Shown in pieces: positions 57 through 36,352 of a stretch of 39,034 nucleotides of DNA. Origin of the DNA: Verrucomicrobiales bacterium (GTDB lineage: Bacteria; Verrucomicrobiota; Verrucomicrobiia; Limisphaerales; UBA9464); NCBI GenBank assembly GCA_027483345.1, contig JAIXUV010000216.1:1-39034 (forward strand), in the 5' to 3' direction. The translations under genes and the position numbers were made by a program. How positions within the stretch are numbered: the first letter of the stretch is position 1; each line of letters begins with the position of its first letter. The notes below the pieces were generated by a model that had not been told where the DNA came from, searched no databases, and worked only from the letters and a program-made list of their open reading frames with translations.

Positions 57-860
57 TCAGCCGAGCAGGCGGAGAGCCGACTGCGGGCTGGCGTTGGCCT
101 GGGCCAGCATGGCGGTGCCTGCTTGGACCAGGATGTTGTACCGGGAGAACTGGGTGCTCTCCTCGGCGACGTTCACGTCCTTGATGCGGCTGTTGGCGGC
201 GCTGAGGTTGTCCTTCAGCACGCCGAGCTGCTCCGAGTACATGCCGAGCGAGGCCTGGTTGGCACCCACGGTGGCACGGTCGGCAGCCAGCTGGCTGATC
301 GCCGTCTTCACCTCGGTCAGCGCGCTGGCCGCGTTGGCCGTGGTGGTCAGGTCGGATCCGGTGGCGCCGGTGTAGCTGGTGGAACCCAGGTCGATGCCGG
401 TGACGGCGGTGGTGTTGCCGTCGCTGTCGGTGGTGACGGCCAGGTCGGACCCGGAGAACAGACTGACCCCGTTGAAGTCCTTCGTCGCCGTGTTGGTGAT
501 GAAGGTCCCGAGGTTCTGGAACTCCTGGTCGTAGAGGGCGCGGTCGGCGTCGCTCTTGGTGACATCCTGGGCGAGGATCGACAGCTCGCTCATCCGGTCC
601 AGGGACTTGGCGACCTTCTTGAGGAAGCCGTCCTGGGTCTGGGTGAACGAAACCGCGTTGCCGACGTTGTCGTTGGCCGCCTGGGTGCGGTTGATTTGTG
701 CGTCGAACCGGGTCGCGACCGCGAAGCCCGCCGCGTCGTCCGCCGGATTCACCAGCTTGGAGCCGGTGGACAGGCGTGCGAGCGAGCGGTTCAGCATTGC
801 GCTGGATTCGCCGAGGTTCCTCGACGCGGTGAGCGCCGAGTAGTTGGTGTTGATGACCAT
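57..860 (-). CDS. Flagellin (copy 1)
   Basis: Flagellar filament subunit, exported through the flagellar type III apparatus and polymerised outside the cell. The start (MVINTN) was chosen because the D0 helix of flagellins begins there and AAGGAG lies 4 nt upstream; an open frame continues 47 codons further but only through leader sequence. Length is 267 residues, a short flagellin: the conserved N-terminal D0/D1 region (about 1-140) with the typical LARLSTGSK and DDAAGFAVATRF segments, a small variable centre (about 140-185), and the C-terminal D1/D0 region ending in ALRLLG. It differs from copy 2 at about 22 of 267 positions (about 92% identity by eye), concentrated in the centre and the two ends, and is less like copy 3. 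It has its own leader and downstream hairpin, so it is probably monocistronic. Confidence 0.96.
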   Translation of the reverse strand: MVINTNYSALTASRNLGESSAMLNRSLARLSTGSKLVNPADDAAGFAVATRFDAQINRTQAANDNVGNAVSFTQTQDGFLKKVAKSLDRMSELSILAQDVTKSDADRALYDQEFQNLGTFITNTATKDFNGVSLFSGSDLAVTTDSDGNTTAVTGIDLGSTSYTGATGSDLTTTANAASALTEVKTAISQLAADRATVGANQASLGMYSEQLGVLKDNLSAANSRIKDVNVAEESTQFSRYNILVQAGTAMLAQANASPQSALRLLG

Positions 861-926
861 ATGACTCCTTCCGTGAAGTCGCCCCGTTGCCGGGGCCTTC
901 CTTCTGAACGCGGCATCCTTGCCGCG
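861..926 (-). promoter_or_regulatory. Structured flagellin leader 1 (three-hairpin element)
   Basis: On the minus strand three hairpins occupy the 66 nt before the AUG. Hairpin A (909-926) is CGCGGC-AAGGAT-GCCGCG. A 12-nt linker follows. Hairpin B (881-896) is GCCCCG-GCAA-CGGGGC. Hairpin C (863-880) is GACTTC-ACGGAA-GGAGTC and holds the Shine-Dalgarno sequence in its loop and 3' arm, 2 nt from the AUG. The loop and closing bases of A read CAAGGATG, an exact match to the CARGGAUG core of the E. coli CsrA consensus. CsrA binding is an inference. Upstream, 975-988 is the palindrome GGCGGCCGGCCGCC and two small hairpins sit at 989-1000 and 1001-1016. No sigma-28 or sigma-54 promoter could be assigned with confidence. 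Confidence 0.65.
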
Positions 927-1112
927 GGGTGGTATGTTCGACGGGAACCACCCGTTTCCCGATCCGGCTTTTCCGGCGGCCGGCCGCCTGGTTTGCACCA
1001 CCCGTCACACGACGGGGAAAATCGTTGTCATGGTCTCGGTTGGGGAGGCGTCGGAGCCGGGGCTTGGCTTCCGCCGCTTGTTCCGGGGCCGTTTGGCCCT
1101 CGGGAAGGCCTG

Positions 1113-1144
1113 CCCGGGCGTCGGCGTCTCGGCCGACGCCCGGG
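1113..1144 (-). terminator. Strong hairpin downstream of flagellin gene 2
   Basis: A perfect 12-bp GC-rich stem (CCCGGGCGTCGG with its complement) and 8-nt loop begin 15 nt after the flagellin 2 stop. No T-run follows. Its place between two flagellin genes suggests that it ends or protects the flagellin 2 transcript and separates it from the flagellin 1 leader. Confidence 0.65.
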
Positions 1145-1159
1145 AGGGTTTGCCTGTCT

Positions 1160-1963
1160 TCAGCCGATCAGTCGGAGGGCCGCCTGCGGGCTGGAGTTGG
1201 CCTGGGACAACATCGCCGTTCCGGCCTGGACCAGGATGTTGTAGCGGGCGTACTGGGTGCTCTCCTCGGCGACGTTCACGTCCTTGATGCGGCTGTTGGC
1301 GGCGCTGAGGTTGTCCTTCAGCACGCCGAGCTGCTCCGAGTACATGCCGAGCGAGGCCTGGTTGGCGCCCACCGTGGCGCGGTCGGCGGCCAGCTGGCTG
1401 ATCGCCGTCTTCACCTCGGTCAGCGCGCTGGCCGCGCCGGTCGTGGTGCTGATGTCCGAGCCGGTGGCGCCGGTGTAGCTGGCGGAGCCCAGGTCGATGC
1501 CGGTGACGGCGGTGGTGTTGCCATCGCTGTCGGTGGTGACAGCGAGGTCGGATCCGGAGAACAGGCTGACCCCGTTGAAGTCCTTCGTCGCGGTGTTGTC
1601 GATGAAGGTACCGAGGTTCTGGAACTCCTGGTTATAGAGAGCGCGGTCGGCGTCGCTCTTGGTGACATCCTGGGCGAGGATCGACAGCTCGCTCATGCGG
1701 TCCAGGGACTTGGCGACCTTCTTGAGGAAGCCGTCCTGGGTCTGGTTGAACGAGATGGCGTTGCCGATGTTGTCGTTGGCGGCCTGGGTGCGGTTGATCT
1801 GCGCGTCGAACCGGGTGGCGACGGCGAACCCCGCCGCGTCGTCCGCCGGGCTGACCAGCTTGGAGCCGGAGCTGAGGCGTGCGAGCGAACGGTTCAGCAG
1901 TGCGCTGGATTCGCCGAGGTTTCTGGCCGAGGTGAGGGCCGAGACGTTGGTGTTGATAACCAT
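1160..1963 (-). CDS. Flagellin (copy 2)
   Basis: Filament subunit of 267 residues, the same length as copies 1 and 3. The start at MVINTNVSAL is supported by AAGGAG just upstream and by the flagellin N-terminus. The D0/D1 helices at both ends are intact and the central region is small. About 35 residues around positions 76-110 are identical to copy 1, and the upstream region is also strongly conserved between the two, so copies 1 and 2 derive from a recent tandem duplication or are kept alike by gene conversion. Copy 2 ends ALRLIG. No flagellar chaperone, cap or hook gene is in the window. Confidence 0.96.
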   Translation of the reverse strand: MVINTNVSALTSARNLGESSALLNRSLARLSSGSKLVSPADDAAGFAVATRFDAQINRTQAANDNIGNAISFNQTQDGFLKKVAKSLDRMSELSILAQDVTKSDADRALYNQEFQNLGTFIDNTATKDFNGVSLFSGSDLAVTTDSDGNTTAVTGIDLGSASYTGATGSDISTTTGAASALTEVKTAISQLAADRATVGANQASLGMYSEQLGVLKDNLSAANSRIKDVNVAEESTQYARYNILVQAGTAMLSQANSSPQAALRLIG

Positions 1964-2119
1964 ATGACTCCTTCCGTGAAGTCGCCCCGTTGCCGGGGCT
2001 TCTCTTCTGAACGCGGCGTCCTTGCCGCGGGGTGGTGTGTTTAAAGGGGACCTCCCATTCCCCACTCCGGCTTTTCCGGCGGCCGGCCGCCTGGCTTTCG
2101 CCACCCGCCACACGGCGGG
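1964..2119 (-). promoter_or_regulatory. Structured flagellin leader 2
   Basis: Same architecture as leader 1. Hairpin A at 2012-2029 (CGCGGC-AAGGAC-GCCGCG), 12-nt linker, hairpin B at 1984-1999 (GCCCCG-GCAA-CGGGGC), hairpin C at 1966-1983 (GACTTC-ACGGAA-GGAGTC), then ATATG. Further upstream: palindrome GGCGGCCGGCCGCC (2078-2091), small hairpin TGGC-GAAA-GCCA (2092-2103) and CCCGCC-GTGT-GGCGGG (2104-2119). The last two pair like their counterparts in leader 1 but with base-pair-preserving changes. The 306-base gap between flagellins 2 and 3 holds only this leader and the flagellin 3 end hairpin. Confidence 0.65.
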
Positions 2120-2222
2120 GAAAAATTGGTTTCACTTCATCGGAGGCGCACCGCGGTTCCTCCTGGTTGCTCCTGCAACGGTGCCTTTGCCGCCATCCGC
2201 CGGACTCCGCCGGCGTCGGATC

Positions 2223-2260
2223 CGCCTCCAGTGCCCGGTCACCCGGGCCGCCCGGAGGCG
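2223..2260 (-). terminator. Two-part hairpin downstream of flagellin gene 3
   Basis: An outer 7-bp stem (CGCCTCC/GGAGGCG) encloses an inner 6-bp stem (GCCCGG/CCGGGC, loop 2239-2242), about 10 nt past the flagellin 3 stop. It sits where hairpins follow flagellins 1 and 2. No T-run is visible. Confidence 0.5.
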
Positions 2261-2269
2261 CGTCTCAGA

Positions 2270-3073
2270 TCAGCCGAGCAGTCGCATGACGGCCTGCGTG
2301 GACTGGTTCGCCTGCGTCAACATCGCGGTGCCTGCCTGCACCAGGATGTTGTAGCGGGCGTACTGGGTGCTCTCCTCGGCCACGTCCACGTCCTTGATGC
2401 GGCTGTTCGCGGCGCTGAGGTTGTCGGCGAGCGTGCCGAGGTTGTCCTTGTAGGAGTTCAGGGAGGCCTGGTTGGCGCCGATCGTGGCGCGGTCCGTCGC
2501 GAGCTGGGAGATCGCGGTCTTCACGTTCGTCAGCGCCGAGGCCGCCGCCGTGGTCGTCGAGATGTTCGAACCCGTGGCGCCGGTGTAGCTCGTCGAGCCG
2601 AGGTCCAGGCCGGTGACGGACACCGTGGCACCGTCGCCGTCGGTCGTGACGGCCAGGTCAGTCCCGGAGAAGAGGCTGACCCCGTTGAAGTCCTTCGAGG
2701 CGGAATCCGTGACGAACGTGCCGAGGTTCTGGAACTCCTGGTCGTAGAGGGCGCGGTCGGCGTCGCTCTTCGTGATGTCCTGTGCGAGGATCGACAGCTC
2801 GCTCATGCGGTCCAGGGCCTTGGAGACCTTCTTTAGGAAGCCGTCCTGGGTCTGGGTGAACGAGATGGCGTTGGCGAGGTTGTTCGAGGCCGCGTTGGTG
2901 CGGCTGATCTGCGCCTCGAAGCGGGTCGAGACGGCGAGGCCCGCGGCGTCGTCCTGCGGCGACGTGATCTTGGACCCGGAGCTGAGGCGCGCCAGGGAGC
3001 GGTTCAGCATCACCGAGGAATCGTTGAGGTTCCGCGCGCTGACCTGAGCCGAGATGTTAGTATTGATGACCAT
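2270..3073 (-). CDS. Flagellin (copy 3)
   Basis: Filament subunit of 267 residues starting MVINTNISAQ and ending MRLLG. The frame is open for 306 codons upstream, but only the last part is flagellin, so the start is set at the family N-terminus. It is the most divergent copy: the centre and many D1 positions differ from copies 1 and 2, yet length is identical and D0 helices are conserved. Its ribosome-binding site is weak (CGGACAGAG before the ATG) compared with AAGGAG in the other two, so it may be expressed at a different level and could be a minor or basal filament subunit (inference). It lies divergently from the ThuA-like gene. Confidence 0.95.
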   Translation of the reverse strand: MVINTNISAQVSARNLNDSSVMLNRSLARLSSGSKITSPQDDAAGLAVSTRFEAQISRTNAASNNLANAISFTQTQDGFLKKVSKALDRMSELSILAQDITKSDADRALYDQEFQNLGTFVTDSASKDFNGVSLFSGTDLAVTTDGDGATVSVTGLDLGSTSYTGATGSNISTTTAAASALTNVKTAISQLATDRATIGANQASLNSYKDNLGTLADNLSAANSRIKDVDVAEESTQYARYNILVQAGTAMLTQANQSTQAVMRLLG

Positions 3074-3226
3074 AACTCTGTCCGTGAGTTCGTCCCCTTC
3101 CGGAGACACTTGTACTGATCGCGACGTCCATGTCGCGGATGGCACCATTCCCGTCCATGGGGGGCGTCCATCGTGCTCCCCTCCGAAGTTTTTCCCGGCT
3201 TCCGGCCGCCGGTGTCTTGCGACACC
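3074..3226 (-). promoter_or_regulatory. Structured flagellin leader 3
   Basis: Sequence has drifted from leaders 1 and 2 but the fold is kept. Hairpin A (3120-3137) is CGCGAC-ATGGAC-GTCGCG. A 12-nt linker follows. Hairpin B (3092-3107) is GTCTCC-GGAA-GGGGAC, a GNRA loop on a stem changed at three pairs including one G-U. Hairpin C (3074-3090) is AACTC-ACGGACA-GAGTT, directly touching the AUG. ATGGAC occurs twice more on the minus strand at 3153-3158 and 3166-3171. A 6-bp GCAA-loop hairpin (3211-3226) matches the small GNRA hairpin upstream of leaders 1 and 2. The same 249-base gap must also hold the promoter of the divergent ThuA-like gene, which I cannot pinpoint. Confidence 0.6.
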
Positions 3227-3322
3227 AAAGTGATCGGAGCCCCACCACGGAACTTGAGCGGAATCTGGACTCCCTTCTCCTTCCGTTGACCGGCGGAGGT
3301 GCCTCGAACCAGTCTCGGCCCG

Positions 3323-4090
3323 ATGAAACCTTCCATCCTGGTCCTGCTGCTCGCGGCGTTGTCGTGGGGCGGTTGTTCCCATCGCGATCCGGCCGCACGG
3401 CCGCTGAGGGCGCTGCTGATCACCGGCGGCTGCTGCCACAACTACGCCTTCCAGACCCAGGCCCTCACCAACGCCGTCGCCCGGCATGCCCTCGTGGATT
3501 GGACGATCGTGAACGAGGGTGGGAACGGCACGAAGGCGGAGATCCCCCTCTACTCCCGCAAAGACTGGGCGAAGGGCTACGACGTGGTGGTCCACAACGA
3601 GTGCTTCGCCGACACCACCTCGCCGGACTACATCCGTTCGATCACGGCGGTCCATGAAGCCGGGGTGCCGGCGGTGGTGATCCACTGCGCGATGCACACC
3701 TACCGCGCGACTTCGATCGACGATTGGCGACGCTTCCTCGGCGTGACCAGCCGGCGCCACGACCACCAGAGCCGGTATCCGGTGAAGAAGGTCCTGCCCG
3801 GACATCCGATCGTGAAGGACATGCCCGATGACTGGCGCACGCCGAAGGACGAACTCTACGTGATCGACAAGGTCTGGCCTGGAGCCACGCCGTTGGCCAC
3901 CTCGGTGAGCGAGGCCGACGGGAAGACCTATCCGGTGGCCTGGATCAACCAAGCCGGGAAGGCGAGGGTCTTCGGGACCACCTTCGGGCACTCCGACGAC
4001 ACCTTCCGCGATGCGGTCTACCTCGACATGGTCAGCCGCGGGCTGGTCTGGGCAGCGGGTGGCACGCCGATCCGGGTCTCAGCTCTGTGA
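3323..4090 (+). CDS. ThuA-like domain lipoprotein
   Basis: Secreted protein of 255 residues with a glutamine-amidotransferase-like fold of the ThuA family, often found in sugar-use contexts of Verrucomicrobiota and Planctomycetota; the reaction is unknown. Start ATG 3323 gives a signal sequence MKPSILVLLLAALSWGGC; the Cys at 18 could be lipidated, though Trp at -3 is not a standard lipobox. A GTG at 3299 in frame has GGAG immediately against it, too close to serve. Family features: LLITGGCCHNY after the signal, YDVVVHNECFAD, PAVVIHCAMHTYR, and a late ARVFGTTFGHSDDTF segment. Its last 12 bases overlap the end of convergent thiD. Confidence 0.88.
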   Translation: MKPSILVLLLAALSWGGCSHRDPAARPLRALLITGGCCHNYAFQTQALTNAVARHALVDWTIVNEGGNGTKAEIPLYSRKDWAKGYDVVVHNECFADTTSPDYIRSITAVHEAGVPAVVIHCAMHTYRATSIDDWRRFLGVTSRRHDHQSRYPVKKVLPGHPIVKDMPDDWRTPKDELYVIDKVWPGATPLATSVSEADGKTYPVAWINQAGKARVFGTTFGHSDDTFRDAVYLDMVSRGLVWAAGGTPIRVSAL

Positions 4091-4975: not shown

Positions 4976-7900
4976 TCAGTTCCGGCCCACGCGGTAGTAC
5001 CGCACCGTGTGGTCGGCGGCATCGGCATCGACATGGGTGGCTCCGAACGCCGTGCCCGGGATTTCGCCGATCCGGCGCCAGTTCACGAGGTCGTCCGAGC
5101 ACTCCAGGAAGGAGACGCCCGGGGCGGTCGTGTCGGAATCGTCCACCACCACGACCTGGACCGCGCCGTCGTTGCGTCGCTCGACCGAGGCGATGCGGGG
5201 CCTGGAGTCGTCCGTGGATTGCGACCGGCTTTCCCCGATGCGGATCCGGACGTCGCGCCCGTCGAACGAAGCGGATCCGGAAAAGGCCGTCGCGGCGACC
5301 CCGGTGACCGTCGCGGTGACCCGTCGGTTGGCGTCGTCCGTGAACGGCCCGAACCGCAGCATCCCGGCGGCGGCGTCATGGACGGCGTTGTCGCTGAGGT
5401 TGGTCACCGACAGTCCTGGTCCGATGAACAACTCCGCCACCTGGCACAGGGTTCCGGTGGCCGGCAGCAGGCGCAGGGTCAGGTCGACCTCGTTGGTCCG
5501 ACCGGCCACACGCCGCATCTCCAGCACCGCAAAGCTCAACGGATCGCGTTCCGGCATCCCCTCGGGCCACAGCGAAGGCAGGTCGAGAACCGAGTTGTCG
5601 ACGAATCCGGACAGGGTCGTCTCCGCGAGGGAGACGAGGACCGGCTTCGTCGACTCGTCCTTGGCGAGGGTGAGCCCGGTGACGTTGGTCGTCGGCTCCG
5701 CAGGAATCCACGCGAGCGGCTCACGGACTCCGTCGCGCCAGGTGTAGTGTCCGCCGGCGGCGACGAGGAAACCGGCGCGGGAGACGTACGACGCCGGTAT
5801 CCGCCCCGTGGCGCCGGCCCAGGCGGTGCCGTTCCTCCAGGCATTGGCGTAGTCGAGGAATTCCTGCTCATCCAACTTGGACGAAGGTGTCGCGACATCC
5901 GCGGGGTGCAGCCGTGACGGGGAGTTGGTCGGAGCGGGAACCACGGCGATCTCCACCGTCTCCGAGCGGACGACGGTTCCGCGGACGTCCGCCCTGGCAT
6001 GGAGCCGGTGGGTTCCGGCCGGCGGGTTCGTCCAGGCCCATTCGTGGATCCGCGGTGCGCCTGGGATCACGGCGTCCCGGGTGAGGTGTTCGGATACCCC
6101 GACGACCACCTCGCCGTCCAGGAACTCGACCCGGCGGATGTCCGCTGCGAGGTCCACGGCGAAGGCCCGGAAGGAAACCGCGGCGGGCTGGGTGAAGCGC
6201 GCGCCGTCCACCGGACTCAGGAGGCGGATCCAAGCGGTCGGATCCGGTTCGGAGACGGCGTCATGGATCACGACGGTCGCCGGCCCTGCATCGCCCACCA
6301 GGTAGTGGCGGTCCGGCGCGAGGGTCAGCACCACGGTCTCGTCGGATTCGACGCGTCGATCCGGAAGCGGCACAAGTCGGATGGAAGTCGAGTCCGCGCC
6401 CGCGGGAAGGATGATGTCCCCGTCGAGGTAGACGAAGTCGCGACCGTTGGAGGCGGTGCCGGAAACGGTGTATCGGACCTTGAGAGGAGAGCTGGTGGAT
6501 CCGCTGCGGGAGAGGAGGAAGGAGCCGATCGAGGCGGCCGATCCCGCGACCGGTTCCCGGACCTCGGCCACCGAGGCGACGAGCCGGACCGTCGGCCTCT
6601 CACCCTCCGTCGCCGGCGTGTCGCGGATCAGTCCACGGGCCGATTCCGGTCGGCCGACCTCGTAGGTGGGACGCATACGGACATACGGCAAGGGTTCGGG
6701 TTGGACGAGGGTGACCACGACCGTTTCCTCGCCTTCGACCCGAACATCCGGCAGCGCCTCGAGGTCGAGGAGCACATTGGTCTGACCGGCTGCAAGCTCC
6801 AGGACCAGCGGGGCCGGAAGGAACAGGGAGGGATCCGTTCCGAAGGCTTCGCCAATCCTCCGGAAGTCGGCGAGATACCGAGCGGAACCGGAGAAGCGGT
6901 AGTGGACCGACAGAGCCGAGGCGGCCGGCCCGGAACGGCGGACCTCGAACCGGAGGCCGTCGGCGGCGTTGGTCTCGGTGGCGACGCCATCCAGGGTGTG
7001 GAGGGTCACGGTCGGAAGGTCGGTGGCGGGATCTGCGTCCTCGATCGAGGCCCTTGCGACCGAGGAGTTCTCGTCGATCCGGTAGGGTGCATCGCGGTCG
7101 AGCGCGGGCTCGAGGTGGAGTTCAACGGTCTCAACTCCCTCGGATTCCCTATCCGTCACGGCGGAGCCGCCCACGCGGATGGAACGGACGCCGGGGGCGA
7201 ATTCGATCCAATCCTCCCTCAGAAGGATCGTGGGACGCGCGCACAACGGGCAGGGATCCTTCTCCAGATGGTAGTCGGAGCCGCGGGTGGCGGACCCGGA
7301 CACGGAAAACCGGACCTTCAAAGGGCCATCGGCGGAACCATCCCGTTCGATCCGGAAGACGAAGGCGGATTCCGGCACGGCCTCGGAGGCGGAAGAGACC
7401 TCGGTGTTAACCCGCACCCGCGGTGCCTCCCCGGATGGAACGGCGACGAGGAGCAGGTCTGGGGAAACCACGGGGACGCCACCGGCGGTCGTGGCCAAGG
7501 CCCGGATCCGGTTGATGCCGGCGAAGGCGTTGGTGCTTTGCCAGGTCAACGAGTGGCCAATCGGGGTCCCGTTGGTGGGGGCCACGAAGAAGCGGATCGA
7601 GCTTTCGCCGATCTTCCGAGTGTTCCGACCGTCCGAGTCGGACACCACGTACTCGACGTCGGGCAGGTAGCCGGAGGGATCCGTCGCGATGACGTCGAGG
7701 ACGACCGGACCGCCGGGGACGAAACCGGAGCCCTGCGCCGGGCTGACCCAGGCGATCGAGGCGGGCCGCGCCATGTCCCGGTCGCGGATGGCCGATTCGG
7801 CGCGGCCGGGGTTGCCGATGACGTAGGCCTCGGCGCCGGTGGGTGGCAGGATGGAAAGCGTGACCGACTCCGAACCTTCGGCGAGCGCGTCGCCGACGGG

Positions 7901-8554
7901 TCTCAGGACCACGGACACGGAGTCCTCGCCGGCCGGGAACTCGACTGCCAATGCACCGAAGGGAATCGCGTAGTCCGCCGTGTTCGAGGCGTCGCCACCC
8001 ATCTGGAATCCCACCCTGAGACGTCCGCCGAGATGCCCGGTCCGGTGTAGTTCGAAGACCTCGACTGGGCCTTCGGCCTCCGTGATGGAGGCTCGCAGAG
8101 TCCTAACGGAGACGATGGGCACGGAGTTCGTCGGAGAATTCGCCGGGGTCACGACGAGGACGACCGGTGCGCTTCCGACTAGTTCGCGGCCCGGCTGCGT
8201 CGGGCGTTGGATCAGCGCGACCGCCTCGACGGCGTGTGTTCCCGAAGGTGGCCGGGACCAGAGGAAGGCAAAGCGGGCCGGCGGCGGCGGAAAGATGGCG
8301 GCCTGGGGAAGGGCCTGCGCGACGCCCAGGAACTGGTTTCCGGCGTAGACGGTCACCGGACCAATGGCAGTGTCGGCCGGCGATTCCAGTTCCATGAGGA
8401 AGGAGACCGGCGTCCCGAGTTGGACCTCGGTCGGGCTTGCCGGTTGGAGGATTCGCAGGGTGGCGGCGGCGGAAGTCGCCTGCGCCCAGGCCGTGAGGGC
8501 GAATGCCAGCAGGCCGAGGAGGAATCTGGATGGCGTTGCAACGAGGGGGTTCAT
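4976..8554 (-). CDS. Large secreted Calx-beta / Ig-like repeat protein
   Basis: A 1192-residue exported protein of unknown function. Start ATG 8554 was chosen because a signal peptide follows (MNPLVATPSRFLLGLLAFAL, cleavage probably in the Ala-rich stretch to about 31); the frame stays open far upstream but overlaps real genes on the other strand. Domains by eye: Ig-like (about 33-136), Calx-beta (146-258), Ig-like (265-375), Calx-beta (379-506), Calx-beta (514-645), Calx-beta (653-765), Ig-like (772-872), then an unassigned region (885-1192) ending in a fibronectin-like stretch. Calx-beta units show the expected DY or DF segment, V.F..G and EGxExVxL motifs, which often bind calcium. One carries CPLC (435-438). 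No outer-membrane anchor or C-terminal sorting signal is evident. It is divergent from the nucleotidyltransferase gene and has its own terminator. Confidence 0.88.
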   Translation of the reverse strand: MNPLVATPSRFLLGLLAFALTAWAQATSAAATLRILQPASPTEVQLGTPVSFLMELESPADTAIGPVTVYAGNQFLGVAQALPQAAIFPPPPARFAFLWSRPPSGTHAVEAVALIQRPTQPGRELVGSAPVVLVVTPANSPTNSVPIVSVRTLRASITEAEGPVEVFELHRTGHLGGRLRVGFQMGGDASNTADYAIPFGALAVEFPAGEDSVSVVLRPVGDALAEGSESVTLSILPPTGAEAYVIGNPGRAESAIRDRDMARPASIAWVSPAQGSGFVPGGPVVLDVIATDPSGYLPDVEYVVSDSDGRNTRKIGESSIRFFVAPTNGTPIGHSLTWQSTNAFAGINRIRALATTAGGVPVVSPDLLLVAVPSGEAPRVRVNTEVSSASEAVPESAFVFRIERDGSADGPLKVRFSVSGSATRGSDYHLEKDPCPLCARPTILLREDWIEFAPGVRSIRVGGSAVTDRESEGVETVELHLEPALDRDAPYRIDENSSVARASIEDADPATDLPTVTLHTLDGVATETNAADGLRFEVRRSGPAASALSVHYRFSGSARYLADFRRIGEAFGTDPSLFLPAPLVLELAAGQTNVLLDLEALPDVRVEGEETVVVTLVQPEPLPYVRMRPTYEVGRPESARGLIRDTPATEGERPTVRLVASVAEVREPVAGSAASIGSFLLSRSGSTSSPLKVRYTVSGTASNGRDFVYLDGDIILPAGADSTSIRLVPLPDRRVESDETVVLTLAPDRHYLVGDAGPATVVIHDAVSEPDPTAWIRLLSPVDGARFTQPAAVSFRAFAVDLAADIRRVEFLDGEVVVGVSEHLTRDAVIPGAPRIHEWAWTNPPAGTHRLHARADVRGTVVRSETVEIAVVPAPTNSPSRLHPADVATPSSKLDEQEFLDYANAWRNGTAWAGATGRIPASYVSRAGFLVAAGGHYTWRDGVREPLAWIPAEPTTNVTGLTLAKDESTKPVLVSLAETTLSGFVDNSVLDLPSLWPEGMPERDPLSFAVLEMRRVAGRTNEVDLTLRLLPATGTLCQVAELFIGPGLSVTNLSDNAVHDAAAGMLRFGPFTDDANRRVTATVTGVAATAFSGSASFDGRDVRIRIGESRSQSTDDSRPRIASVERRNDGAVQVVVVDDSDTTAPGVSFLECSDDLVNWRRIGEIPGTAFGATHVDADAADHTVRYYRVGRN

Positions 8555-8749
8555 GGTGACGGTGTTCGCGGTGACAGGGTTGTCGGTGCGGATTCGTCGT
8601 TGGATGGCCGTCCGAGACGGGAACCGGACCCTGCGTCGGCTGCCTTCGGCCATTCCCAGACGGATCCGCACCACCGAGACCTCCACCGAACTTCCACCAA
8701 ATTGTGGGTGTGCTGTCGAAAAGGGAATCCGTATCCTTACAACCATACG

Positions 8750-9499
8750 ATGAAGGTTCTGATCCTCGCCGCCGGTTATGCGACCCGGCTCTATCCGCTG
8801 ACCCTGACCCAGCCCAAGCCCCTGTTGCCGGTGGCTGGAAAGCCGATGGTCGACCATGTGCTCGACAATCTCTCCACCATCCCGGGCATCGACCGCGTCA
8901 TCGTGGTGACCAACGCCAAGTTCGCCGGCCATTTCGAGCAATGGGCGTCCGCCTATCGGGCGGCCAAGTCGCCGACCCTCGACTTCACCATCGTCAACGA
9001 CGGTTCCACGGACGACACCAACAAGCTCGGAGCCATCGGCGACCTGAACCTGGTGCTGGAGCGCGAGCAGTTGGACGACGACCTGATCGTGGTGGCCGGT
9101 GACAACCTCTTCAGCCAGAGCCTTGCCGGGTTCGGCGAGTACTGCCGTTCCCAGACCGGACCGGTGCTCGGCGTGTACGATGTCGGCAGCCTGGAGCAGG
9201 CCCGAAAGTACGGAGTGGTCGACGTGGACGCGGCCGGCAAGATCACGAGCTTCGTCGAGAAGCCCACGGACCCGGCGAGTACCTTGATCGGCATCGCCCT
9301 TTATTACTACCCGAAGGCGTTCCTCGGCCATGTCCGCCGCTACCTCGCCGAGGGCAACAATCCCGATCAACCCGGACGTCTGGTGCAGTGGCTGTACCCG
9401 CAGACCCCGGTGATGACCTGGAGCGTTCCCGGCATCTGGTACGACATCGGATCCAAGGAGACCTTGGAGGAGGCGAACCGGATCTTCGGTCGCCGCTGA
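8750..9499 (+). CDS. Sugar-phosphate nucleotidyltransferase family protein
   Basis: Cytoplasmic enzyme of 249 residues expected to join a sugar 1-phosphate and an NTP into an NDP-sugar; the sugar cannot be told from sequence. The N-terminal signature is LILAAGYATRLYPLT, with Tyr-Ala where classical RmlA-type enzymes have Gly-Thr, followed by PKPLLPVAGKPMVDHVL. VVAGDNLF holds the metal-binding Asp; KYGVVDVDAAGKITSFVEKP and a late IWYDIGSKETLEEAN complete the family pattern. It lacks the C-terminal left-handed helix domain of larger enzymes. No strong Shine-Dalgarno precedes the ATG. It faces away from the Calx-beta gene across a 195-base shared promoter region. Confidence 0.9.
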   Translation: MKVLILAAGYATRLYPLTLTQPKPLLPVAGKPMVDHVLDNLSTIPGIDRVIVVTNAKFAGHFEQWASAYRAAKSPTLDFTIVNDGSTDDTNKLGAIGDLNLVLEREQLDDDLIVVAGDNLFSQSLAGFGEYCRSQTGPVLGVYDVGSLEQARKYGVVDVDAAGKITSFVEKPTDPASTLIGIALYYYPKAFLGHVRRYLAEGNNPDQPGRLVQWLYPQTPVMTWSVPGIWYDIGSKETLEEANRIFGRR

Positions 9500-9530
9500 T
9501 CCTGAGTCATCAACGGGAGCGGGAAGGGGC

Positions 9531-9555
9531 CTCACGCTGAAACGCCAAGAGGCCA
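9531..9555 (+). repeat. Half-copy of a dispersed repeat
   Basis: The segment CCTCACGCTGAAACGCCAAG resembles 25762-25781 (CCTCACGCTAAAACGCCAAG), one base different in 20. It sits in the 168-base gap between the nucleotidyltransferase and acyl-CoA ligase genes. No inverted partner is obvious here, so this may be a decayed copy of the paired element at 25.8 kb. Confidence 0.55.
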
Positions 9556-9667
9556 ACTGGGAGCTGTATCCGGAGTCGAATTGGCAACCGTCGATCGGCT
9601 CCGTTTTTTGCCCCCGCTTCGCCCGCGTTGACGTGACTGCGCCCGCGGACGCAAGCTTCGGGATCCC

Positions 9668-11146
9668 ATGGAAAACCTCGCCACGGCCTTCCTCGGCAGC
9701 GCAGCCGTCAACGCGTCGAAGCCAGCCCTCTTCTGGGCCGAGGCGGAATTCAGCTACGCCCACTACGCAGGCCAGGTGGCCTGGGTGGCCGACCGTTTGG
9801 CGAAGCTGGGCGTCCGTCCCGGCGACCGCGTGGCTTTGTGGCTGAGGAACTGCCCGGAGTTCGTCGGAGGTCTTTTCGGCATCTTCGGCGCGGATGCCGT
9901 CGCCGTGCCGATCAACAACTTCCTCAAGCCCCAGGAGGTCGGCTACATGTTGGACGACTCGGGGGCGACGGTCGTGCTCGCGGAGCGTTCCAACCCGGCG
10001 TTGGCCGAGCTCCTTGCGGCCCGACCGGGACTGCGTTCCATCGAGGTGGAGGACTTCGGCGATTCCGGTCCCGCCCCCAAGCCGGTCCGCACCCGCGCCG
10101 ACCTCGCCGTCCTGATCTACACCAGCGGCACGACGGGGCGTCCAAAGGGTGCCATGCTCACACATGGCAACCTGCTCCACAACGTGGAGTCGTGCCGCGT
10201 CATGCTCGGGGTGATCCCGGACGACCGGCTGATCGTGCTGCTGCCGATGTTCCACAGCTTCATGCTCACCGTGGGACTCCTGCTGCCGCTGCTCAGCGGA
10301 GCCTCGATCCTCGCGGTGAAGGGGCTCAATTCCCCGAAGACGATGGTGGGTGAGATGATCCAGCGGGGAGGCACATTGCTGCCGGCGATGGCGGCGTTGT
10401 TCCGGGCCCTTTCCCAGCTGCCACCGGGCGTGGACTTCGCCTCGCTGCGGCTGTGCGTCAGCGGCGCCGGCCCGCTGCCCCTGGAGATCCTCCGGGGATT
10501 CAACGAGCGGCATCCCAAGGTTCCGCTCATCGAGGGATACGGACTCAGCGAAGCGAGCCCGGTGGTGACCGTGAATCCTCCGGCCGGGCCCGCGATCGCC
10601 GGCACCATCGGGATCCCCATTCCTGGAGTGGAGGTCACCGTGCAGGACGATTCCGGAGCCATGTTGCCGGATGGAACCGACGGGGAGATCTGCGTGCGCG
10701 GCGGCAATGTGATGCTCGGCTACTGGAACGCTCCGGAGAAGACCGCCGAGGCGCTCCGGAACGGATGGCTCCTCACCGGAGACATCGGCCATCGGCGTCC
10801 CGACGGCTGGTTCGTCATCACCGACCGCAAGAAGGACATGCTCAAGCCGAACGGGATGAACGTGTACCCGCGCGAGATTGAGGAGGTGATCTACCGTTTC
10901 CCCGGGATCCGGGAGGCCGCGGTGGTCGGTGAGCCATGCGACCGGCGGGGCGAACGTCCGGTCGCCTTCGTGGCCATGGACGAGGGACGCCAGCTCGACG
11001 AACCCGCCCTGATCGCCTTCCTGCGCGACCAACTGGCGGACTACAAGGTCCCGCGTCGCGCGGTGGTGCTGCCGGCGTTGCCGCGCAACGCGACGGGCAA
11101 GATCCTCAAGACCGCGTTGCGCGAGATGGTCGCCTCCGGCCGCTGA
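9668..11146 (+). CDS. AMP-dependent acyl-CoA ligase (FadD-like)
   Basis: Adenylate-forming enzyme of 492 residues that would activate a carboxylic acid, probably a fatty acid, with ATP and transfer it to CoA. Motifs: the P-loop-like LIYTSGTTGRPKGAMLTHGN (near 143), GYGLSEASPVV (near 294), WLLTGDIGHRRPDGWF with the ribose-binding Asp, DRKKDMLKPNGMNVYPREIE hinge, and the C-terminal catalytic Lys in NATGKILK. It is a little shorter than E. coli FadD and lacks a signal or membrane segment. It follows the nucleotidyltransferase by 168 bases and converges on the dGTPase-like gene. Substrate chain length cannot be judged. Confidence 0.92.
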   Translation: MENLATAFLGSAAVNASKPALFWAEAEFSYAHYAGQVAWVADRLAKLGVRPGDRVALWLRNCPEFVGGLFGIFGADAVAVPINNFLKPQEVGYMLDDSGATVVLAERSNPALAELLAARPGLRSIEVEDFGDSGPAPKPVRTRADLAVLIYTSGTTGRPKGAMLTHGNLLHNVESCRVMLGVIPDDRLIVLLPMFHSFMLTVGLLLPLLSGASILAVKGLNSPKTMVGEMIQRGGTLLPAMAALFRALSQLPPGVDFASLRLCVSGAGPLPLEILRGFNERHPKVPLIEGYGLSEASPVVTVNPPAGPAIAGTIGIPIPGVEVTVQDDSGAMLPDGTDGEICVRGGNVMLGYWNAPEKTAEALRNGWLLTGDIGHRRPDGWFVITDRKKDMLKPNGMNVYPREIEEVIYRFPGIREAAVVGEPCDRRGERPVAFVAMDEGRQLDEPALIAFLRDQLADYKVPRRAVVLPALPRNATGKILKTALREMVASGR

Positions 11147-36277: not shown

Positions 36278-36352
36278 TGGCTCCAGAGGTAGGGCTCGAA
36301 CCTACAACCCATCGGTTAACAGCCGATTGCTCTACCATTGAGCTACTCTGGA
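36278..36352 (-). tRNA. tRNA-Asn (GTT anticodon)
   Basis: On the minus strand a full cloverleaf is visible. Acceptor stem TCCAGAG (36352-36346) pairs with CTCTGGA (36288-36282). The D-arm is GCTC/GAGC with an AATGGTA loop, the anticodon stem ATCGG/CCGAT has loop CTGTTAA (anticodon GTT at 36320-36318), and the T-arm is GTAGG/CCTAC with loop TTCGAGC. Discriminator G is followed by an encoded CCA (36280-36278). Confidence 0.96.

Follow-up and report, generated by a model that had tools for sequence, protein, structure and literature searches.

The window analysed here is a stretch of 39,034 nucleotides from a Verrucomicrobiales bacterium (Verrucomicrobiota, order Limisphaerales; assembly GCA_027483345.1, contig JAIXUV010000216.1, positions 1 to 39,034). 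It carries three tandem flagellin genes on the minus strand (57-860, 1160-1963 and 2270-3073), each encoding a protein of 267 residues with the Pfam domains Flagellin_N and Flagellin_C. The initial annotation had placed an RNA element of three hairpins (A, B and C) directly before their start codons (AUGs at 860, 1963 and 3073), and both the positions and the flagellin identity of the downstream genes hold. Folding the three leaders recovered the hairpins, and the 12-nucleotide linker between A and B, the GCAA, GCAA and GGAA loops of B and the listed compensatory changes are all present in the three copies. However, the element is longer than three hairpins, as it includes two predicted pseudoknots on the 5' side of hairpin A (988-927, 2091-2030 and 3211-3138); the annotation overlooked these as well as GGA motifs in the loops. 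Judged from the sequences of its relatives, the conserved leader consists of two predicted H-type pseudoknots (PK1 and PK2), followed by hairpins A, B and C and then the AUG.

All parts of the three leaders lie on the minus strand. Hairpin C was found by folding at 863-880 in leader 1 (arms GACUUC and GGAGUC around the loop ACGGAA at 874-869, with the Shine-Dalgarno sequence in the 3' arm), at 1966-1983 in leader 2 (loop ACGGAA) and at 3074-3090 in leader 3 (AACUC and GAGUU around ACGGACA). Hairpin B, likewise from folding, occupies 881-896 and 1984-1999 (both with a GCAA loop, the second also marked by the columns of the covariance model described below) and 3092-3107 (GGAA loop). Hairpin A lies at 909-926 (loop AAGGAU at 920-915, closed by a C-G pair; sequence and model columns), 2012-2029 (AAGGAC) and 3120-3137 (AUGGAC), the latter two from folding and model columns.

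In PK2, a stem P is crossed by a stem b that ends at hairpin A, and PK1 stands in front of PK2, as read from relatives' upstream regions. PK2 of leader 1 spans 927-961 (P 961-958 with 945-942, b 953-947 with 933-927; model columns, with the exact register set by eye), its stem b abutting the start of hairpin A. In leader 2 it spans 2030-2063 (P 2063-2060 with 2049-2046, b 2056-2050 with 2036-2030, with one A-A mismatch in b; register by eye and model columns), and in leader 3, where it was read by eye and the covariance model places stem b one base off, 3138-3181 (P 3181-3178 with 3164-3161, b pairing GAUGG at 3172-3168 with CCAUC at 3142-3138). Model columns place PK1 at 964-988 (stem S1 988-986 with 977-975, stem S2 983-979 with 968-964, with additional support from covariation in relatives), 2067-2091 and 3183-3211, with S2 interrupted in leader 3. 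Energy z-scores against dinucleotide shuffles were -3.1, -4.5 and -2.0 for leaders 1 to 3; the stretch used for leader 1 cuts into hairpin A, and 11 of 200 shuffles of leader 3 fold as well or better.

How far the leader extends was judged from related genomes. A flagellin scan, run on GTDB genomes, returned 80 loci, of which 79 are titled Verrucomicrobiota or a subgroup (the exception, L056, is labelled Euryarchaeota). A covariance model that ends at the AUG and includes only helices that can be nested was built from 31 leaders. In the source genome this model finds four copies (112.5, 110.9, 77.1 and 61.1 bits; the next match scores 15.2). Across 320 genomes of the order it has matches in 135 at E 0.001, 101 of which reach E 1e-10 or better (strong-leader genomes), and many genomes hold several copies. 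With 100 further regions from among the matches listed, fetched mostly best-scoring first and about one to two per genome, we had 129 loci in total. Searched with a sequence profile made from those 31 leaders, they give 141 matches, some sites being represented twice; one match (L251) ends at a contig edge. Although the model ends at the AUG, a flagellin-type N-terminus follows in 136 of the 140 matches with readable downstream sequence.

Two details of the annotation do not extend to the whole family: the GNRA loop of hairpin B, seen in all window copies, occurs in 51 of 110 distinct leaders, and the A-B linker, constant in the window, varies in length among relatives. In one subgroup (L040, L044, L045, L049, L052, L078 and L084), hairpin B is missing by eye while A and C are kept, and a PK2-like knot can be read by eye in several of these B-less leaders.

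We tested the pairing on an alignment (A3) from 100 sources, ten of them the window and loci of the flagellin scan, which yielded 115 model matches and 110 distinct leaders. Standard pairs fill 91.7% of its 3800 cells, against 39.5-46.4% when the pairing partners are slid as a control. Two-sided changes occur at 30 of 35 pairs, in 578 cells compared with 165.9 in shuffles. Under a tree-based null of the R-scape kind (our own script, 100 null alignments, cut-off E 0.05), eight pairs are significant, every one within the proposed helices: five in PK2-b, two in PK1-S2 and one in hairpin A. A covariance model from relatives' leaders with such a test was the check that the initial annotation had suggested, and its claim of selection on RNA structure gains significant covariation in PK1, PK2 and hairpin A, but none in B or C. 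PK1-S1 and PK2-P likewise have no significant pairs.

The alignment was fitted to a model holding PK1-S2, PK2-b, A, B and C, and so favours those helices. Aligning the same 110 leaders by sequence only with MAFFT gives two significant pairs. The first lies in PK1-S2; the second, which was scored as outside the helices, joins columns of the two PK2-b arms, whose true register appears in at most 31 of the 110 rows. In a swap test covering 125 distinct regions, the PK2-b arms of a leader were more complementary to each other than to swapped arms in 111 (p 3e-19, which is too small since the sequences are related). For this test, 19 of 181 entries were dropped, having no hairpin A that passed the search or too short a stretch, and duplicates were merged. 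It was negative for window leader 2 (own 12.5 vs swapped 13.3) and for four of the seven B-less leaders. Taken together, the alignments support selection on RNA structure well beyond the three window copies. Leaders 1 and 2 are closely alike in sequence, as would be expected had one functionless leader recently been copied among the tandem flagellins. With 110 distinct leaders, the excess of two-sided changes and covariation found across the family, this explanation is extremely unlikely, as the annotation had argued.

The most conserved unpaired positions point to a function. Among columns with few gaps, those at least 90% conserved are the ANGGA of loops A and C, a single A of PK1 and the start region. 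The loop of hairpin A is an exact C-ANGGAN-G in 101 of 110 distinct leaders and in all three window leaders, and a C-G pair closes it in all 110. GGA is present in loop A of 108, loop C of 109 and loop B of six; in all three window leaders the second GGA lies in loop C, beside the Shine-Dalgarno sequence. Hairpin C is nearly invariant, with the Shine-Dalgarno sequence paired in its 3' arm. GGA in hairpin loops is the recognition element of CsrA (PMC7652899, PMC4894983), whose bridging of two sites has been reported over 10-63 nucleotides (PMC7652899). In the 107 leaders with both GGAs, their distance is 28 nucleotides once and otherwise 35-49 (mostly 37-49), within that range in every case.

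The genes for CsrA and its partner FliW are present as well. In the source genome, csrA and fliW are adjacent (contig C144), and their products match solved CsrA and FliW in sequence, including entry 5dmb, which holds both. Order-wide, csrA was found in 134 of the 320 genomes, fliW in 133 and both in 132. csrA is present in 93 of 101 strong-leader genomes vs 41 of 219 others, and, among the 157 flagellin-bearing genomes, in 91 of 99 vs 36 of 58; a strong leader occurs in two of 163 genomes without a flagellin match. The csrA start of the source genome itself has ACGGAAGG, but this is not kept in the relatives compared, and we rejected it as a sign of csrA autoregulation.

A fourth flagellin follows csrA and fliW on contig C144, without hairpins or a clear Shine-Dalgarno sequence, so the leader stands before the three window genes but is not shared by all flagellins in the genome. 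Visual inspection of loci from the flagellin scan gave a list of 31 without a full leader, and csrA lies upstream of the flagellin in 28 of them; the exceptions are L018, L058 and L065, with remnants of GGA hairpins in L018 and L058. This list omits L055, L066, L072, L073 and L074 (unusual match start or contig end) and matches without an N-terminus; in L055, csrA and fliW are present further upstream. The order thus seems to keep two kinds of flagellin gene, a leaderless operon copy behind fliW-csrA and free-standing copies with the leader. That flagellins behind fliW-csrA (L001 556-1359, minus strand, and the 28 loci), some of them also without a clear Shine-Dalgarno sequence, lack the leader suggests that they are under different control, perhaps through coupling to csrA. 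The source genome also holds the last 20 codons of a flagellin at a contig edge (C209:1-60), identical in protein to flagellin 1 and perhaps an extra copy or an assembly overlap.

The position of the promoter suggests how much of this region is transcribed. We searched 128 distinct upstream regions for sigma-28-like promoters of the TAAAG-CCGATAA type, with one mononucleotide shuffle of each as a control. Allowing at most two mismatches, 96 of 128 regions have such a promoter, compared with three of 128 shuffles; with at most three mismatches there are 109, of which 108 share one common spacing. In 100 of the 109, the distance from the end of the -10 box to the AUG is 129-157 nucleotides. In the window, flagellin 3 has a putative promoter of this type (3231-3257, minus strand; TCAAG at 3257-3253 and CCGATCA at 3237-3231, by eye), and the relatives' copies L133_1 and L135_1 have the same boxes in the same place. 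In most of the relatives examined the promoter lies just 5' of PK1, so the messenger RNA (mRNA) would be expected to start a few bases upstream of PK1. Additional small hairpins were seen by eye 5' of PK1 in leaders 1 and 2 (992-1060 and 2095-2150, minus strand).

From this anatomy, its conservation and covariation, the partner genes and the promoter position, we infer that the leaders are, with high probability, translational operators for CsrA that are controlled by FliW. One CsrA dimer would anchor on loop A and bridge to loop C, holding hairpin C shut and blocking the ribosome. FliW would be freed on completion of the hook and export of flagellin and would then take up CsrA, so that the flagellin mRNAs could be translated. 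Hairpin B would shorten the path from A to C. The mRNA would be closed at its 5' end by PK1 and PK2, which may also be stacked on hairpin A; most likely they stabilise the RNA and keep hairpin A in shape, although this is the weakest step of the proposal. It is very unlikely that hairpin C functions independently of CsrA, as a switch or thermometer that masks the Shine-Dalgarno sequence by itself; its near invariance and its paired Shine-Dalgarno sequence would fit such a device, which leaves the equally conserved ANGGA of loop A and the link to csrA unexplained.

Several observations weigh against a FliW-controlled CsrA operator. Hairpins B and C, which vary little, have no significant covariation. 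In the minimum-energy fold of the whole of leader 1, PK2-b, A and B form, but C is replaced by another pairing. GAAG of the linker can pair with CUUC of hairpin C in leaders 1 and 2. With five or six pairs in most leaders, hairpin A is longer than the majority of selected CsrA ligands, which had four or fewer contiguous pairs (PMC7652899), and GGA is missing from A or C in three of the 110 leaders. Four leader matches (L146_1, L149_1, L249 and L253) do not precede a flagellin. By eye, flagellins 1 and 2 have no sigma-28-like promoter at the usual distance, nor do their counterparts in L133 and L135; their transcripts may start further upstream. csrA was not found in eight of the 101 strong-leader genomes, and neither csrA nor fliW in seven; several of the eight, but not all, are drafts of low completeness. 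Genomes with weak matches only show no link to csrA (15 of 34 vs 119 of 286). Finally, csrA, fliW and flagellin go together anyway, and the co-occurrence of leader and csrA is partly a matter of motility.

One orphan leader copy in the source genome (C92:6824-6955; L091, minus strand, about 1501-1632) scores 61 bits and has no AUG or flagellin behind it, as is also the case for L253. It recurs in a second genome of the genus, but the stretch is 94% identical between the two, so its conservation is uninformative. It may be a relic, or else an RNA that acts as a sponge for CsrA. At L146 (2593-2720), L149_1 and L249, the reading frames that follow the leader do not resemble flagellins.

Outside the order, 37 of 387 genomes in a sample of the phylum pass E 0.01, none above 25.3 bits apart from the source genome; only two of 29 fetched loci have a flagellin match and the remainder look like chance, and we therefore rejected a phylum-wide spread of the leader. 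Two genomes from other orders of the class have weak model matches (about 21 bits) before flagellins. Their leaders show hairpin A with CAAGGAUG or CACGGAAG and AAGGA at the Shine-Dalgarno sequence (L102 1500-1560, minus strand; L103 1535-1587, plus strand), and no clear pseudoknot or hairpin C. This form is a possible candidate for the ancestral state; the pair of CsrA sites looks like an old core, and the pseudoknots like an addition of this order.

What, then, might the pseudoknots do? They could form the ligand-binding aptamer of a flagellin riboswitch with the CsrA sites downstream, and tandem pseudoknots that covary and presumably sit at the 5' terminus of the transcript would suit this. 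We consider it very unlikely. A small-molecule pocket would not be expected to have just one unpaired column with 90% conservation or more, as is the case in PK1 and PK2; even lax thresholds give no match to an Rfam riboswitch (cyclic di-GMP or other) around the window leaders or in 11 relatives' loci; and hairpin A is kept in the two flagellins from other orders, where no clear pseudoknot is seen. Strings resembling GCAAACC and AAAGCC, reminiscent of a cyclic di-GMP riboswitch, occur near PK1 of leader 1; with no Rfam match, and the first string missing from leader 2, they were dismissed. We also rejected, by eye, the 3' arm of PK2-b as an anti-Shine-Dalgarno sequence: it reads ACCUCC in the L009-L016 group but varies freely elsewhere.

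The leader might instead mainly titrate CsrA, with abundant flagellin mRNA, protected at its 5' end by the pseudoknots, acting as a sponge. This is compatible with an operator. The flaA leader of Campylobacter titrates CsrA (PMC4894983), many genomes have several leader copies, and the orphan occurs without a flagellin in two species; the masking of the Shine-Dalgarno sequence by hairpin C favours control in cis, however, and the near-identity of the orphan stretches limits what they can say. As the main function, titration seems to us rather improbable. It is somewhat doubtful, though conceivable, that the leader is a distinct RNA class, in which tandem H-type pseudoknots at the 5' end, the second abutting the CsrA-anchoring hairpin A, are an active part of the switch. 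They could, for example, be a clamp that forms the CsrA anchor in advance and shields the 5' end, turning flagellin mRNA into a long-lived sink for CsrA, or a sensor that alters hairpin A when it opens.

In Rfam, the leader has no match at gathering score in the window. Relaxing the cut-off to E 5 in window positions 850-3350 and to E 3 in 11 relatives' loci gives only matches far below gathering, such as one of Cis2_sRNA to leader 1 with 19 bits where 50 are required, and these were taken as chance. The sole gathering-score match in the window is a transfer RNA gene (36281-36352, minus strand); the window also has a reading frame of 2018 residues with Calx-beta and bacterial Ig domains (4976-11032, minus strand). 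The annotation's statement that no named RNA family has this layout thus stands for Rfam, but hairpins A and C are arranged in a way already known, as in the two-site CsrA operator on a flagellin leader. Our literature search, which covered few subscription papers and may have missed large structured-RNA screens, found no description of the leader or its two pseudoknots and, among the titles surveyed, no report of CsrA-FliW control of flagellin in Verrucomicrobiota. If the proposal is true, such control extends to this phylum. The order-wide, covariation-supported RNA family is also a candidate for RNA databases, and its tandem pseudoknots raise a testable question: why does a CsrA operator have a knotted 5' end?

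The closest parallel is flaA of Campylobacter jejuni, a sigma-28 flagellin gene whose leader has two stem-loops with ANGGA loops, the second over the ribosome-binding site; FliW is reported as the antagonist there, and compensatory changes between species have been reported (PMC4894983). The flaA leader is 45 nucleotides long, with a GGA spacing of 21 nucleotides and two stem-loops, and the accessible part of that report describes no pseudoknot (PMC4894983). In the Verrucomicrobiota leader, by contrast, the AUG lies about 130-155 nucleotides from the promoter, there are two 5' pseudoknots and a hairpin B, and the spacing is mostly 37-49 nucleotides. CsrA binding is proven for flaA (PMC4894983) and predicted for the Verrucomicrobiota leader. 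Bacillus subtilis hag also has two CsrA sites, one over the Shine-Dalgarno sequence, and FliW as the antagonist, but no pseudoknot or third hairpin in the accessible parts of the sources (PMC7652899, PMC8523840). In E. coli glgC, one CsrA dimer bridges from a high-affinity hairpin site to a Shine-Dalgarno site, although the gene is a different one and Gammaproteobacteria antagonise CsrA by small RNAs, without fliW (PMC7652899). TwoAYGGAY RNA (RF01731) has two matches to the CsrA-binding hairpin motif, but is a proposed CsrA-sequestering small RNA of Clostridia (PMC4333381); its model has no match in the window or the 11 loci at the Rfam thresholds given above. The CsrA switch is thus very probably of a known kind, working like the flaA and hag leaders, while the phylum, the order-wide extent, hairpin B, the two 5' pseudoknots and the absence from Rfam are new.

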